NCBI GenBank assembly: GCA_958295695.1
Contig: OY282363.1
Coordinates: 2,608,225 to 2,672,224 of the forward strand
Reading direction: 5' to 3'
Length of the DNA: 64,000 nucleotides
Source: an uncultured Alphaproteobacteria bacterium
GTDB taxonomy: Bacteria; Pseudomonadota; Alphaproteobacteria; SP197
Position 1 is the stretch's first letter. Every line of letters begins with the position of its first letter. The translations under genes and the position numbers were made by a program. Positions 58,090 to 64,000 of the stretch are shown here, in pieces. The notes beneath the pieces are model-generated. The model searched no databases. It worked only from the letters and a program-made list of their open reading frames with translations, and was not told where the DNA came from.

Positions 58090-58147
58090 CATGACGTGTC
58101 CGTCTTCGACGGAATCGCCATGGCTTGCCTGTCGCTCGCGGCGGGCG
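58090..58147. repeat. Palindromic intergenic repeat, family A, copy 3
   Basis: CATGACGTGTCCGTC/GACGGAATCGCCATG forms an imperfect stem with a TTC loop, followed by GGCTTGCCTGTCGCTCGCGG, the string shared with copy 2, and GCGGGCGG. It lies between the convergent cytochrome and GFA genes. The remaining intergenic bases show nothing else. Confidence 0.78.
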
Positions 58148-58163
58148 GCCTCGCGGGCCCGCG

Positions 58164-58607
58164 TCAACTCCCGGCCGGCCCGTGGCGCAGGGGCGCGCCG
58201 ACGCCGGGGAAGCCCTCGTAGCGCGGCAGGTCGTCGGCCACCTCCATCCAGGAGATGCGCTCGACATCGAAGGCGTGGGCCGTCGGCCTCAGCGTGTCCG
58301 GCTCGTCGAAGGCGCTGATGTGAAGCTCGACGATCGGGCCCAGCTCGCCGCCGTCGCCCTCCCACGTCAGCGGCGTGCCGCAGTCGCCGCAGAACGCGCG
58401 CCGAACGCCGGGCGACGAATTGTGGAACTTCCGCCCGGTCCCGCCGAACGCGACCTGCCCGGCCTTGTAGCCCGCCAGCGTGACGACCGCCGCGCCGTTG
58501 TGCTTGCGGCAACTGTGGCAGTGGCAATGGGTCACGTCGAAGGGGTCGCCCTTCGCCTCGAAGCGGACGGCGCCGCACATGCAGCCGCCGGTTCTGGTCT
58601 CGGTCAT
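58164..58607 (-). CDS. GFA-family zinc protein (formaldehyde-activating enzyme-like)
   Basis: The 147-residue protein has the two zinc sites of the GFA/CENP-V fold: GGCMCGAVRFEAKG with THCHCHSCRKHNGAA, and FCGDCGTPLTWEG. True S-(hydroxymethyl)glutathione synthase is one member, but many paralogues have no known reaction. Start ATG 58607 lies after ATTTGG-poor sequence with GGGAGCG as a ribosome site. It is 165 bases downstream of the glmL-type gene, with no clear terminator between. Confidence 0.86.
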   Translation of the reverse strand: MTETRTGGCMCGAVRFEAKGDPFDVTHCHCHSCRKHNGAAVVTLAGYKAGQVAFGGTGRKFHNSSPGVRRAFCGDCGTPLTWEGDGGELGPIVELHISAFDEPDTLRPTAHAFDVERISWMEVADDLPRYEGFPGVGAPLRHGPAGS

Positions 58608-58772
58608 CGTTTCGCTCCCATGATCGAGCGGCCCCGCCCCGATGGCGCGCCATTCATGCGAGCCGCCATTCTGCCCCCATGCGCCCACGCGCGCCACCCC
58701 GGCGGGCCGAGCCTGCCGCGGGGGGCGCCGGAGGTCGAGCGACCGGCGCCGGAGCTCGCCGCAAGGCCCGCG

Positions 58773-60161
58773 CTAACCCAGCCCCAACTCCGACGTCATG
58801 AGGCGGAAGGCCGCGTCGGGATCCCGCCCGGCCAACAGGCCGGCGGCGGCCAGGACGTAGCTCCGGTCCGTCGCGACCGCCGGACCGGCGGGCGTCAGGG
58901 CGCCCCTCTCGCGCCGTCCAAGGGCCCGGGACACGGTGTCGGCGCCCCGTCCGTCCCGCGCCAGCATCCCGCCCGTTCCGATCAGCATGGGAACCTGCCT
59001 GAGATCGGGTCCTTCCTGGACGAAGCGCGTACCCTGGTTCGGCACATAGACGGTCGAGAGCCGGCCGCAATGCCGGCGCAGCGCATGGGTCAGGCACGAC
59101 ACCGCGAGCGAGCGGTCGAACGCCCGGTGCTCGTCCGTCGCCGCGAGGAACCCGGGCGCCTCCCGGCGCGCGCGGCATCGCCGCTCGAGATCGCCGTCGG
59201 CGAGTCCGGTTTCCCGGCGAAGCCACGCGCGGTCGGCGTCGAGAACCGCGGGGGCGTTCCAGCGCATCCCAAGGTCGCCCTGCACGGTCCTGGCCAGCGG
59301 CAGGGGCGGCAGGCCCTTCGGCGCGACGCCGACCGGGAGCGGGCGCGGGGCGACCGAGGAATGCACGTCGGTCGTCGCGCCGCCGATGTCGAGGACCGCG
59401 AGGTCGCCGAGCCCGCCCCTTCCCTTCGGTCCCCGCGAGAGCAGCTCCGTCGCGACCAGCACCGCTTCGGGAGTCGGCATCGCCACCGTCTCGCCGAACT
59501 CCGCCGCCCCGGAGAGCCCCTTGCCCACGATCACATGTTCGATGAAAAGCGCGCGAATCGCCGCGCGGGCCGGCTCGATGTCGAGACGGTCGATGTCGGG
59601 CAGCACATTGGCGACGACACGGACCGTCGCGCCCCCTTCCTCCAGCCGTCGCGCCACGTCGTCGGCGACATCGCGGTTGCAGGCGACAATGACGCGCCCA
59701 CCGGGCTTCGCGCGCGCCAAGGCGTCGGCGTTGGCCAGGATCTGCCGCGCCTGCCCGCCGTCCGTGCCGCCCGAGAACAGGACGATATCGGGCCGGGCCG
59801 CGCGCAGAACCGCGAGATCGGCGTTCCGCAACCGTCCCGCGAGTACGAGATCGACCCTGGCGCCGGCGTTGAGGGCGGCCTGCCGGGCGGCGGCGGCCGT
59901 GTAGTCGCCGACGAGGCCGACGGCGGCCACACGCAAGCCGCCGCCGGCGCTCGAGGCCGCGATCCGGTCGACAACGCGGCACGCCCCACCGGTCTTCCCG
60001 AGCGCGGCGCCGAGCGCGGCGGCGTAACCCTCCATCACGTCGGTCGAGACCGTCGTCGGGACGGCCGCCGACGCGACTCGGCGTCCGGTCCCGGATGCGA
60101 CCAGGGTCAGCTTGGTGAACGTGCTCCCGAAGTCCGCGAGCGCGACGACGTCGATGGCCAC
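58773..60161 (-). CDS. glmL: GlmL/MutL-type reactivating ATPase for a B12 mutase
   Basis: The 462-residue actin/HSP70-fold protein has ADFGSTFTKLTLV at the N-terminus, VGLVGDYTAAAARQA, VLFSGGTDGGQARQI and LAVLDIGGATTDVHS, the MutL signature. Characterised relatives accompany glutamate mutase and B12 aminomutases and are thought to exchange damaged cobalamin. ATG 60161 is six bases after the B12-protein stop, so it is in the same operon. It names the class of its partner but not the substrate. Confidence 0.88.
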   Translation of the reverse strand: MAIDVVALADFGSTFTKLTLVASGTGRRVASAAVPTTVSTDVMEGYAAALGAALGKTGGACRVVDRIAASSAGGGLRVAAVGLVGDYTAAAARQAALNAGARVDLVLAGRLRNADLAVLRAARPDIVLFSGGTDGGQARQILANADALARAKPGGRVIVACNRDVADDVARRLEEGGATVRVVANVLPDIDRLDIEPARAAIRALFIEHVIVGKGLSGAAEFGETVAMPTPEAVLVATELLSRGPKGRGGLGDLAVLDIGGATTDVHSSVAPRPLPVGVAPKGLPPLPLARTVQGDLGMRWNAPAVLDADRAWLRRETGLADGDLERRCRARREAPGFLAATDEHRAFDRSLAVSCLTHALRRHCGRLSTVYVPNQGTRFVQEGPDLRQVPMLIGTGGMLARDGRGADTVSRALGRRERGALTPAGPAVATDRSYVLAAAGLLAGRDPDAAFRLMTSELGLG

Positions 60162-60167
60162 CCCGCC

Positions 60168-61931
60168 TTAGTGCGGCCCGATCGCGCCCACCGCCCCGAC
60201 CAGCACGTCGATCGAGTCCGGCGTCGCGATCCCGAGTCGGCCGAGGTCGTCGCGCACGTCGACCGGAACGTCGGAGCCCTCGATGTCCTCGTTGAGCACG
60301 CCGCCCATGAAAACCGGGACGTCCATGTCGGCGGCCCGCAACTCGTCCATCAGCTTCCTCCCGAACGACCGCGCGACTCCGTTGTGGGTCGTGATCACGA
60401 TGGCCTCGGCGTCGGTCTCGAGCGCGACCTCGACGATATCCTCGGGATCCTTGTTGATGCCGCAGTCGATCACCTTGCCGCCGACCGCGTCGAAGGTGGA
60501 GGTCAGCAGGAACTTGGCGAACTCGTGCACGTCCGTCGAGGCGACCAGGATCCTGCGCCCCCTGCAGCCCGGCGCCTCGCCGCGCTCGGCGAGTCCGTCG
60601 AGCAGCTCCTTGCGCTTCCGCATGGTCTGGCTCACCAGATCGGTGCCCAAGACGGGCTTGCGTCCGCGGATCTGGTCGTCGTCGCGCTCGCCGGCGCCGA
60701 ACATTTCCTCGCAGGTCTCCGGCCCCAGGCGCTTCATGACCAGAAGCACGCGGCCGGGGTCCTTCGTGTCGACGCCCATCTGCTCCATGGCGTCGAGCGC
60801 GTTGCGGAAGAACCTGCGCCCGCCCTCGACCAGCCGGTCGCGCATGGCCTCGATCTTCTCCCAGTCGACATAAGGGTCGATCATCGGCACGTAGTCGTCG
60901 CACTTGCGGCTGATCGACTGGACCTGGGCGACCTCCTGCCAAGTCGGGATGCGCTCGGTTTCGGTGACGGGCACGGCCAACGGAGCGCAGCCCAGCCTGT
61001 AGCGCATGTCCGTCATCTTGACGTACATGAGGTCGTTCACCAAGACGGCCATGTTGGCGTCGAAATCCCGTGTGTTGCCGATCGTGTCGCCCTGGAGGAA
61101 CGAGATCGGCACCCTGTCCGGATTGACGGCCTCGAGCGCCAGGGTGACGGCCGACTTGACGATCGGGTTCTGGGTCAGGCCGCCCCAGGAGCTGGCGTAG
61201 GCGGCGCCCATGAGGTCCTCGACGACGTAACGCTCCAGCATCGCCCAGCCGATGTAGCTCGCGTAGTCGTGGAACACGCCGGGATAGCCGTCCTCCAGAT
61301 AGGAATCGAAGACGACGCCCCTGTCCTTCTTGGACGCCAGGACGCCGCCCGCCCTGAGCACGTTGCGGAGCTGGCTCGTCTCGTCGTCCCAGTAAGGCCA
61401 GCGCCACGTGTACTGGCTGACCACGCCGATGGTGGTGATGCCCACGCGCAGCGCGTCGAGCGCGTTGTCGAGCGAGCCCGGACCGCCGATCATGTTGTCG
61501 GCGGCCTCCGGCTGGATCGGGACCGTGTGGGTCATCTCCCACCAGTCCTGCTCGGTCCACAGGCACGGCCCCGTCTCCTGCGGCGCCTCGCGGCGCTTGT
61601 CCTTGGGCAGGCCCATGCGCCGTTCGGCGATCAGGTTGAAGCGGTCCGGCGGACGGATTCCGCGCGACAGGGCGTCCTCGTAGATATTGGCCATGGCCTC
61701 CCGGGTCTCGGACCACGTGTTGAGGCCGATGTTCATGCAGGTGCAGGGTATGGACCGCTCCCTGGCGATCTCCCGCCAGCCCCGTTCGGAGACGACCCCC
61801 TTCTCCTCGCAGTAGAGCGAAAGCCCCATCTCGACGGTCTCGCCCAGCGCCCTGCCCTCGGCGACGACCTCCCGCCCGTCGGGCAGATCCTCCGGGATCA
61901 GGTCCGCGATGTCGACGGCGCGCACGTCCAT
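60168..61931 (-). CDS. Uncharacterised B12-binding mutase-like protein
   Basis: The 587-residue protein has a C-terminal Rossmann-like domain (about 459-587): RILVASTDVHEFAKFLL, GGKVIDCGINKDPEDIV, EAIVITTHNG and VPVFMGGVLNE. It parallels glutamate mutase subunit S (DCHAVGNK, NIGVLSPQEV, ILVSSLYGQG, YVGGN). Asp467 and His469 of the DxHxxG motif are kept; the Gly is Ala472. Residues about 140-420 look like a barrel (GGPGSLDNALDALRVG, SSWGGLTQNPIVKSAVTLAL, FLQGDTIGNTRDFDAN) that I cannot place in a known mutase. Location before glmL and after an SDR and a binding protein points to a new carbon-skeleton or amino-group mutase. Confidence 0.72.
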   Translation of the reverse strand: MDVRAVDIADLIPEDLPDGREVVAEGRALGETVEMGLSLYCEEKGVVSERGWREIARERSIPCTCMNIGLNTWSETREAMANIYEDALSRGIRPPDRFNLIAERRMGLPKDKRREAPQETGPCLWTEQDWWEMTHTVPIQPEAADNMIGGPGSLDNALDALRVGITTIGVVSQYTWRWPYWDDETSQLRNVLRAGGVLASKKDRGVVFDSYLEDGYPGVFHDYASYIGWAMLERYVVEDLMGAAYASSWGGLTQNPIVKSAVTLALEAVNPDRVPISFLQGDTIGNTRDFDANMAVLVNDLMYVKMTDMRYRLGCAPLAVPVTETERIPTWQEVAQVQSISRKCDDYVPMIDPYVDWEKIEAMRDRLVEGGRRFFRNALDAMEQMGVDTKDPGRVLLVMKRLGPETCEEMFGAGERDDDQIRGRKPVLGTDLVSQTMRKRKELLDGLAERGEAPGCRGRRILVASTDVHEFAKFLLTSTFDAVGGKVIDCGINKDPEDIVEVALETDAEAIVITTHNGVARSFGRKLMDELRAADMDVPVFMGGVLNEDIEGSDVPVDVRDDLGRLGIATPDSIDVLVGAVGAIGPH

Positions 61932-61946
61932 GGCCGGCGTCCTCCC

Positions 61947-62747
61947 TCAGCCCATCAGGGTCCAGCCGGCGTCCACGAGGAGATTCTGGCCGGTCATGTA
62001 GCCGGCGCCGTCGGACGCCAGGTAAACGACAGTCTCGCCGATCTCCATCGGGTCTCCCAGCCGCTTGAGCGGCGTCATGGCGACGGCCTCCTCCATGTGC
62101 TCCCTGGGGATGCCCCAGTCGGCTTCCCAGTTCGCGGCGATGGGCCCCGGCGAGACCGCGTTGACGCGAATCGCGGGCGCGAGGTCGCGCGCCAGCGCGG
62201 CCGTCATCGCACGCACCGCGCCCTTGGCGGCGCAGAACGCGATGGCGACGGAGTTCACCATGTTGTCCTGGCTCGTGCCGTTGCCGTAGGAGCCGGAGAA
62301 GTTGACGATGGACCCGGCGCCCCTCTCGCGCATCGGCGGCACGACCGCCTTGCACATCAGCAGCGACCCCTTCACGTCGATAGCGAAGATGCGGTCCCAG
62401 GCGTCCGGGTCGATGGCGTCGAAGCGGACCGCATCGGCCGGATCGATGCGCCCGGCCGTGTTGACCAGCACGTCGACGCCGCCGTAGCGGTCGACCGTGT
62501 CCGCGACGAAGGACCCGATCGAATCCGGTTCGAGGACGTCGAGGTAGCCGACATGGGCCTCGCCGCCGCCGCTCGCGATCTCGGCGACCGCCGCGTCGGC
62601 GATGTCCCGGTTCGCGCGCGCGCCCAAGGCGACGCGCGCGCCCTCGCGCCCGAGGGCGCGCGCGGCGGCGCTGCCCAGACCCCCGTTGGCGCCCGTCACG
62701 ATCGCGACGCGACCCTCCAGGCGCCGCCCGTCGCTCCAGCGCGGCAT
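61947..62747 (-). CDS. SDR oxidoreductase-like protein without the catalytic tyrosine
   Basis: The 266-residue protein has the NAD(P) motif VTGANGGLGSAAARALG, the LVNTAGRIDPADA region and the ending YMTGQNLLVDAGWTLMG, typical of classical SDRs. Where YxxxK is expected it has FCAAK: Phe171 replaces Tyr and Lys175 remains. The loop before it (SGSYGNGTSQDNMVN) is longer than usual, so a displaced tyrosine (Tyr154) might serve. The gene is 15 bases upstream of the B12-protein gene and 7 bases after the binding-protein gene. It may act on the mutase substrate or product. Confidence 0.88.
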   Translation of the reverse strand: MPRWSDGRRLEGRVAIVTGANGGLGSAAARALGREGARVALGARANRDIADAAVAEIASGGGEAHVGYLDVLEPDSIGSFVADTVDRYGGVDVLVNTAGRIDPADAVRFDAIDPDAWDRIFAIDVKGSLLMCKAVVPPMRERGAGSIVNFSGSYGNGTSQDNMVNSVAIAFCAAKGAVRAMTAALARDLAPAIRVNAVSPGPIAANWEADWGIPREHMEEAVAMTPLKRLGDPMEIGETVVYLASDGAGYMTGQNLLVDAGWTLMG

Positions 62748-62754
62748 CGCGGCG

Positions 62755-63825
62755 TCACTCGGCCGTCTTCACGGCGTTCCAGGTCTCGATGTACTTGTCG
62801 AGCCGCGGCTGAAGCTGCCAGAAGTCGAGACCGTCGAGGTACTCCGGGTCGTTGAGATGGAGCCCGGCCATCTCCTCGTCGGTCAGGCAGTCCTGCACGG
62901 CCGCCGCGTTGGCGGGCGAATAGCCGGCGACCTTGACCATGCCGCACTGCCCGCCCGGACCGGACGAGAAGTTGAGCCAGGCGTAGGCGCAATCGAGGTT
63001 CGGCGTGTCCTTGACCACGGCCCACACGTCCTGCCACCCGTCGGCCCGCTCCTCGGGGATCGCCTCGGCGACCGGAATGCCCTGCTCACGCAGAACCGAC
63101 GCCTGGTAGCCGCCCCACGTCTCGGAGACCCAGACCTCGCCCGACGCGTAGAGGCTGATGAGATCGCCGCCCGTCGACCAGTAGGTCCTGAGCAGCGGCT
63201 TCTGCTCGATCAGCTTCTGCTTGACCTCCTCGAGCTGCTCGTCGGTGAGATTGTAAACGTCGGTGTCGCGCCCGTAGAGGATGCGGGCCGCCATGAAGAT
63301 GGTCATCGACACGTCCTGCGTGGCGATGTGGCCGGCATAAGCCGGATCCCACAGGACTTCGGCCGAGGTCGGCGGTTCGTCGAACTTGTCGGTGCGGTAC
63401 ATCAGCGGAATCGAGCCCCAAGCCATCGGCACCGACCACACCTCGCCGTTCCCGCCGATCACGCCGGGATGGGTCAGGAACGAGTCGGGCATCTCGTCGA
63501 GATGATCGAGGCGGCCCCGGTCGAGCGCCTCCAGAGCGCCGAGATCGACCATGATCTGGGCGTAGTTGATGGCCGGCGAAACCATGTCGAAGGTGCCGGC
63601 GTCGGCGGCGATCTTGGCGATGATCTCGTCGTTCGAGCCGACGTAGGTCGGCGTCACCGTGCAGCCGCTCCGCGCCTCGAACTCCGAAACGAAGCTCGGG
63701 TCGGTGTAGCCTTCCCAGGTCAGCACATTGAGGTCGTTGCCCGCCTGCGGCGCCGATGACAGGCCGAAAACCGCGAGAGCGACCGAAGCGGCGGCGCACG
63801 GCAGCCTGAAACCGCGATGTGACAT
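62755..63825 (-). CDS. PotD-like ABC substrate-binding protein
   Basis: The 356-residue periplasmic protein starts at ATG 63825 (MSHRGFRLPCAAASVALAVFG, a signal peptide). Segments LNVLTWEGYTDPSFVSEFEARSGC, YVGSNDEIIAKIAADAGTFDMVSP and WSVPMAWGSIPLMYRTDKF are those of spermidine/putrescine-type binding proteins. It leads a tight operon with SDR, B12 protein and GlmL, and no permease or ATPase gene follows. The ligand is likely to be an amine or amino acid and so the probable mutase substrate. About 175 bases of promoter region precede it. Confidence 0.88.
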   Translation of the reverse strand: MSHRGFRLPCAAASVALAVFGLSSAPQAGNDLNVLTWEGYTDPSFVSEFEARSGCTVTPTYVGSNDEIIAKIAADAGTFDMVSPAINYAQIMVDLGALEALDRGRLDHLDEMPDSFLTHPGVIGGNGEVWSVPMAWGSIPLMYRTDKFDEPPTSAEVLWDPAYAGHIATQDVSMTIFMAARILYGRDTDVYNLTDEQLEEVKQKLIEQKPLLRTYWSTGGDLISLYASGEVWVSETWGGYQASVLREQGIPVAEAIPEERADGWQDVWAVVKDTPNLDCAYAWLNFSSGPGGQCGMVKVAGYSPANAAAVQDCLTDEEMAGLHLNDPEYLDGLDFWQLQPRLDKYIETWNAVKTAE

Positions 63826-63892
63826 GGTGTTCCCCCTCCAGAGACGGCCACGCGGCCCCGGACCGGACCGGGACGCGCGGCTTTGTTGATCG

Positions 63893-63910
63893 GCCAACCG
63901 ATTTGTTGGC
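63893..63910. promoter_or_regulatory. Inverted repeat upstream of the B12-mutase operon
   Basis: GCCAAC (63893-63898) and GTTGGC (63905-63910) form a perfect 6-bp inverted repeat with a 6-base spacer, about 70 bases upstream of the binding-protein start. A TTGTTG direct repeat overlaps it. It may be an operator, but no regulator gene is visible in the window. No other feature is seen in 63826-64000. Confidence 0.4.
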
Positions 63911-64000
63911 TCGTCCTCCATCATAGGCGGCGGGATCCGGGCCGTCAAAGCCGCAAGCCCCGGACCCCGGCGGCCGGCCCGACGCGTTGAGGCGCCGGGA

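Follow-up and report, generated by a model that had tools for sequence, protein, structure and literature searches.

This analysis concerns a group of four genes on the minus strand of a 64,000-nucleotide stretch of contig OY282363.1 from an uncultured alphaproteobacterium (the window, meaning that whole stretch) and, above all, the cobalamin (B12) protein encoded by one of them. In 5'-to-3' order, they comprise a PotD/YdcS-like, periplasmic solute-binding protein with a signal-peptide-like N-terminus (62755-63825; 356 amino acids), a short-chain dehydrogenase/reductase (SDR; 61947-62747; 266 amino acids; adh_short_C2 with E 1e-53 in Pfam), the B12 protein (60168-61931; 587 amino acids) and a GlmL/MutL-family ATPase, a candidate reactivase (58773-60161; GTG start; PF13941 with E 2e-135), separated by gaps of 7, 15 and 6 bases. 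The arrangement agrees with the original prediction, made from the sequence alone, of a four-gene set with gaps of about 6 to 15 bases, including a PotD-like binding protein and a MutL-signature ATPase. The likely start of the binding-protein gene was placed at ATG 63825, the upstream TTG not being used. A sigma-70-like promoter candidate, TTGACG-17-TATGAT (63920-63948, minus strand), lies 95 bases 5' of this first gene, having 10 of 12 matches with 0.2 expected by chance, and the nearest upstream gene on the same strand ends about 500 bases away; because of both features, an operon with its start inside the window is plausible at the sequence level. The region around the operon had zero Rfam matches, and hence no cobalamin riboswitch was detected there.

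Domains and fold of the B12 protein

The B12 protein has two parts. Residues 455-587 (60171-60569, minus strand) form a C-terminal Rossmann cobalamin-binding domain of the GlmS/mutase type, as seen by PF02310 and NCBIfam: the former matches above its cut-off (E 4e-11), covering residues 463-546 only, and in NCBIfam the highest-ranking model, methylaspartate mutase subunit S, stays under its cut-off with E 3.5e-10. The cobalt-ligand motif of the base-off/His-on type, D467-V-H469 (60525-60533, minus strand), has its aspartate and histidine invariant in all 30 aligned members, so that the GlmS-like domain with a preserved DxH, as originally described, is borne out. Residues 1-452 (60576-61931, minus strand) correspond by fold match to a GlmE-like radical-enzyme barrel and linker helices, with no sequence family; indeed, residues 1-455 gave zero family matches in Pfam or NCBIfam, and the earlier statement that the N-terminal two thirds could not be assigned holds for these searches. 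The Pfam scan of 30 relatives returned B12-binding only, besides scattered weak matches, the GlmE family PF06368 being present in none of the 30, and no barrel match to the MM_CoA_mutase (MCM N-terminal) family appeared in either collection. When the family profile was compared to PDB sequences, solved structures were matched only over about the C-terminal third, the top match being the MetH B12 fragment over residues 430-543; outside this third, there were weak adrenodoxin matches, with E 0.07 or worse. Regarding previous descriptions, no paper on this family was found in a literature search whose coverage mostly excluded subscription journals, and the only label in the annotated records examined is "cobalamin-dependent protein".

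The fold was modelled with AlphaFold without templates, from nine alignment rows, for the whole window protein, a member of clade A of the family (see below), and for residues 1-442. The predicted TM score reached 0.84 for residues 1-442 and 0.78 when the whole protein was modelled, and the model places four helices N-terminal to the cobalamin domain. Searching 350,542 PDB chains with Foldseek, the barrel alone best matched glutamate mutase E (6h9e_B, E 8e-11; 1cb7_B, E 1e-10; TM 0.6), followed by the barrels of ornithine 4,5-aminomutase (OAM) and lysine 5,6-aminomutase (LAM). The whole model placed methylmalonyl-CoA mutase first (best E 8e-11; TM up to 0.52), which has the same domain order; presumably, this match stems from the cobalamin domain and the domain order weighing in. 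Thus, out of the complete set of chains, the predicted model picks those with radical barrels dependent on adenosylcobalamin (AdoCbl).

A sequence link to GlmE was also obtained by hhalign, aligning the B12-family profile with a profile of 14 GlmE proteins; the larger profile was required, as the first runs with only three GlmE sequences gave no match. The alignment is collinear over 295 columns, with a score of 30.1 and P 0.0076, above all 150 column-shuffled controls (mean 17.1, maximum 27.1), above reversed GlmE (18.1) and above other protein families, among them several TIM barrels (22.1 or less). GlmE is also better than OAM for this barrel, both in fold match and in profile score, and the profile alignment to methylmalonyl-CoA mutase gave no match.

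The stretch of residues 321-346 holds TETERIPT, where GlmE has KTPHEAVGIPT and Streptomyces GlmE-like proteins have KTPAEAHRIPT. It contains the motif E324-x-x-R327-I-P (60945-60962, minus strand), preserved as TE-x3-[IV]-P in all 30 members, whose E324 aligns, in sequence alignment only, with GlmE Glu330. This glutamate contacts the adenosyl ribose in glutamate mutase, as does Glu338 in OAM (PMC3958899, review). The pattern E-x3-[ILV]-P is common to the B12 family (30/30), GlmE (Glu330), OAM (DEGRNVP) and the methylmalonyl-CoA mutase of this genome (DEALALP); the OAM motif was taken as Glu338 by assuming a numbering offset of 3, K626 there being the published K629. Separately, in the Dehalococcoides-labelled relative (L014:6977-8716), an in-frame TGA coincides precisely with position R327, invariant everywhere else, and may reflect a nonsense mutation, a faulty assembly or recoding. 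The original prediction also held that GlmE is unlike this barrel, which is contradicted by GlmE being the closest solved fold, by the profile score above all shuffles and by the shared adenosyl-ribose glutamate motif. Rather than having an unrelated barrel, the B12 protein is best seen as belonging to the GlmE fold group, with its domains fused and its substrate probably shifted.

As for the substrate site, glutamate mutase uses R66, R100, R149 and E171 (PMC9545868), positions that were confirmed on the Peptoclostridium GlmE sequence. R66, R149 and E171, each kept in 13 of 14 GlmE proteins, align with N67, E142 and G169 of the B12 protein in a remote alignment, and clade B has mostly Q and H at positions 67 and 142. 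Because the aligned glutamate-binding residues are replaced, the substrate is probably other than glutamate. Regarding pyridoxal phosphate (PLP), this cofactor is bound as an imine by Lys629 in OAM and Lys144 in LAM (PMC3958899). No lysine is invariant in the 30-member alignment, making PLP chemistry unlikely; the sole highly conserved one, K473 (27/30), lies within the DVHExxK cobalamin motif.

Relatives, clades and the GlmL partner

Loci and genomes are designated here by L and G followed by a number, G000 being the window genome, and their neighbourhoods were read with a simple G+C-position gene caller, by which genes may be missed or shortened. Seven relatives of the B12 protein came out of one pass over 84,980 species genomes, six of them 61-84% identical, in metagenome-assembled genomes (MAGs) of Rhodospirillaceae, Acidiferrobacteraceae, Acidimicrobiaceae and Solirubrobacterales, and one 36% identical, in a MAG labelled Dehalococcoides. 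As relatives of 61-84% identity exist in several other lineages, the B12 protein is not a chance reading frame. Very long open reading frames overlap the operon in other frames (58125-62855, plus strand, 1576 amino acids; 58654-62355, minus strand, 1233 amino acids), and these are put down to the high G+C content and not counted as genes. Among 385 sampled alphaproteobacterial genomes, the family occurs in 16, mostly at 30-41% identity, and viral contigs contained no relatives.

The complete order of binding protein, SDR, B12 protein and GlmL is repeated in L013 and L008, belonging to one alpha- and one gammaproteobacterial MAG. The last three recur in both Pseudomonadota and Actinomycetota, the latter keeping only these: L009 has the order SDR, B12 protein, GlmL and aminotransferase, and L010 and L011 have B12 protein and GlmL with an SDR nearby, together with other ABC systems and class III aminotransferases. 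The conservation of all four genes together, whose absence would have counted against the original prediction, is then seen in Pseudomonadota and is reduced to three genes in Actinomycetota.

In a tree of 36 members, the dividing branches with 100% support separate clade A, having the window type and a subgroup of about 40% identity, from clade B. A P5CR-like reductase is found nearby in 12 of 20 clade B loci and a PhyH-type oxygenase in five. The window genome itself carries a clade B paralog, 33% identical (L017:8593-10341; G000:C1:2933640-2935319), adjoining a crotonyl-CoA carboxylase/reductase, with a class III aminotransferase near and no GlmL there. Another observation is the tandem run at L044 (G307:C20:1-11918), with at least five clade B genes of the B12 family in 9 kb, about 50-69% identical, one of which is interrupted by an in-frame TAA, and with two P5CR-like genes after the array.

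The GlmL ATPase scores 453 bits against PF13941 (cut-off 27) and 305 bits against TIGR01319 glmL_fam (cut-off 204), and its 431 bits against the equivalog NF040745 lie under the cut-off of 475. GlmL has been described as a reactivation chaperone of glutamate mutase (PMC4682846). The operon copy is the sole GlmL of the window genome, which carries both clades. A GlmL gene adjoins the B12 gene in all six close relatives and in several of about 40% identity; full-length copies stand beside clade A genes in G261, G385 (both copies), G386, G387 and G390, and a partial one at the contig end in G395. None of the searched genomes with only clade B had a full-length GlmL. Among solved structures, none with sequence similarity to the window GlmL was found.

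SDR, binding protein and neighbouring genes

The SDRs across the loci are plainly orthologous, having in common the signature NFSGSYGNG...NSV. As seen in the ortholog alignment, the active-site motif YxxxK is changed to FxxxK in the window (F171CAAK, F171-K175; 62223-62237, minus strand), the catalytic position being phenylalanine in the window and in the proteobacterial L013 and L008, and tyrosine in the actinobacterial L009, L010 and L011. This replacement suggests that the Phe-bearing proteobacterial SDR may not be a normal dehydrogenase. It had been overlooked in the original prediction, as had the lack of transport membrane genes in the operon and the second family member in the genome.

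The binding protein matches SBP_bac_8 with E 1e-27 (Pfam), and polyamine-binding proteins are among its nearest solved chains, in line with its designation as PotD-like; it shares 79% identity with the copy in L013 and 63% with that in L008. In an alignment to 8y5h, the residues that we take to be the PotD contacts W34, Y37, Y85, W229, W255, D257 and Y293 appear to be retained, unlike D168/E171. None of the four genes of the operon encodes a transport membrane component. Elsewhere in the window genome, a related ABC transporter of the polyamine type is encoded at L087 (G000:C1:2366000-2385500). It has a binding protein of its own, which shares 51% identity with that of the window, and its permease shares 67% with the permease adjoining the L008 operon; this transporter may provide membrane components for the orphan binding protein. 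It adjoins a PhyH-like gene, so labelled by similarity to the PhyH proteins of L048, L046 and L008, and a pair of glutamine-synthetase-like genes whose relatives include gamma-glutamylputrescine synthetase.

Other neighbourhoods contribute class III aminotransferases near the B12 gene in L009-L011, an AMP-binding ligase in L011, alanine dehydrogenase, agmatine deiminase-like and N-carbamoylputrescine amidase-like genes (agmatine degradation) in L010, and proline racemase and a DAO-family FAD oxidase in L073. Together, the transporter and the neighbouring genes suggest an amine or amino acid substrate without pointing to a single compound. Three candidates were considered and set aside: an agmatine/putrescine route, backed by L010 only; proline or hydroxyproline compounds, backed by L073 and L040; and hydroxylated amines, which rest on PhyH genes that are absent from some clusters. 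As no candidate is common to all clusters, no substrate is named.

Proposed reaction and comparison with known systems

By its fold, and by a profile match that is weak but above chance, the B12 protein groups with the AdoCbl radical mutases, closest to GlmE. We consider it likely that it is an AdoCbl-dependent carbon-skeleton mutase, with GlmE and GlmS fused, that acts on a substrate other than glutamate and is reactivated by GlmL. The cofactor would be AdoCbl rather than another cobamide form and the reaction a mutase rearrangement rather than another radical reaction; these two points, the role of GlmL and the substrate class are what we infer. Computed directly are the genes and their linkage, the domain assignments, the fold match, the motif and the replacement of the aligned substrate residues. 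In the proposed mechanism, a single chain having a GlmE-type barrel followed by a GlmS-type cobalamin domain would hold cobalamin base-off with His469 on the cobalt. Substrate binding would then trigger homolysis of the Co-C bond, with Glu324 holding the adenosyl ribose, and the adenosyl radical would abstract a hydrogen from the substrate, which would rearrange and regain hydrogen. Inactivated cobalamin would be swapped out by the adjacent GlmL ATPase, and the substrate would most likely be an imported amine or amino acid, delivered via the PotD-like binding protein. On these points, the original prediction is supported: an AdoCbl mutase with a GlmL partner and a probable amine or amino acid substrate, of which no description was found.

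Several points weigh against this assignment. The confidence of the AlphaFold model is moderate (mean pLDDT 75-78) and low near residues 277-287 and 320-326, including the ribose-glutamate motif. The hhalign probability of the GlmE alignment is only 5%, and rotated GlmE still scores 30.1, the score being therefore carried mainly by the short 26-column stretch of residues 321-346. The R66, R149 and E171 columns are located outside the best-supported stretch, their matches being less secure, and R100 has a gap opposite it. In addition, the clade A carriers G389, G394 and G307, of 38-42% identity, have no full-length GlmL in their genomes.

The GlmE-like fold, the GlmS-like domain and the GlmL partner would also suit a true glutamate mutase with fused subunits, converting glutamate to 3-methylaspartate, and GlmE proteins with an extra N-terminal part do exist, such as the Roseibium aggregatum 'methylaspartate mutase subunit E' of about 664 amino acids, with GlmE from residue 155. 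However, the replacement of R66, R149 and E171 by N67, E142 and G169 and the lack of PF06368 in every member make it very improbable, and no methylaspartate ammonia-lyase adjoins the gene, unlike in the glutamate mutase loci examined from Peptoclostridium, Ensifer, Prevotella and Rhizobium. A PLP-assisted aminomutase of the ornithine 4,5- or lysine 5,6-type, shifting the amino group of an imported diamine, is improbable as well: OAM and LAM barrels are the next Foldseek matches, the binding protein is PotD-like and a GlmL-like protein adjoins the ornithine aminomutase gene in L063, yet the family has no invariant lysine for PLP, and GlmE surpasses OAM in both fold and profile.

The MetH B12 fragment as the top PDB sequence match (residues 430-543) and the four helices before the cobalamin domain recall a corrinoid methyltransferase, with a MetH-like succession of barrel, helical cap and cobalamin domain; we regard this as highly unlikely, as the barrel matches radical mutases, the adenosyl-ribose glutamate motif is invariant and the described role of GlmL is the reactivation of glutamate mutase (PMC4682846). 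Least credible of all is a CoA-ester mutase resembling methylmalonyl-CoA mutase. The full-length Foldseek matches, the crotonyl-CoA carboxylase/reductase adjoining the paralog and the AMP-binding ligase in L011 would fit it, but the barrel has neither an MM_CoA_mutase match in Pfam or NCBIfam nor a profile match, the barrel-only fold search leads to GlmE, and the operon has GlmL and no MeaB-type gene.

Returning to the fused GlmE-type mutase, few AdoCbl carbon-skeleton mutases are known, and work on fermenting bacteria brought several of them to light. There is about an even chance that the family is an undescribed one of fused AdoCbl mutases, catalyzing an unrecorded rearrangement, probably of an amine or amino acid outside glutamate, lysine and ornithine, with clade A using GlmL and the larger clade B, allied to a P5CR-like reductase and, in some loci, to an Fe/2-oxoglutarate oxygenase, functioning without it, and with the carriers of the family including soil- and root-associated bacteria. 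The same radical machinery combined with other residues at the substrate site, found in 16 of 385 sampled alphaproteobacterial genomes, indicates a metabolic step for which no record was found. Moreover, GlmL-accompanied and GlmL-free mutases can be compared within this one family, a natural contrast relevant to the reactivation of B12 enzymes.

Compared to GlmE/GlmS with GlmL, the window system has the same barrel fold, type of cobalamin domain, E-x3-[IV]-P ribose motif and GlmL-family partner gene; however, it is a single chain that ends in the cobalamin domain and has no sequence-level family match, the aligned arginine claw residues and E171 are replaced, and a solute-binding protein and an SDR are present instead of methylaspartate ammonia-lyase. 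The long GlmE proteins L094:2033-4027 (Roseibium aggregatum, beside an amino-acid adenylation gene) and L088:1477-3420 (G406) have a long N-terminal extension and are apparently GlmS-GlmE fusions. They likewise have an extra domain in one chain with the GlmE part, but their extra 155 or so residues are N-terminal and their GlmE part is an ordinary PF06368. OraE and lysine 5,6-aminomutase share the barrel fold group, the ribose glutamate motif and, in the ornithine cluster, a nearby GlmL-like gene, whereas they need lysine-bound PLP, for which no such lysine is conserved in the window family. Methylmalonyl-CoA mutase has the same succession of barrel and C-terminal cobalamin domain, and a ribose motif in DEALALP, differing by the lack of a barrel sequence match and of a MeaB-type partner in the window operon. 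Finally, the 'cobalamin-dependent protein' of Shinella, Phyllobacterium and Neorhizobium plasmids, which belongs to clade B, represents the full-length family, 30-33% identical and keeping DxH and ExxRIP; unlike the window protein, clade B members have no GlmL and are often located near a P5CR-like reductase and sometimes a PhyH oxygenase.

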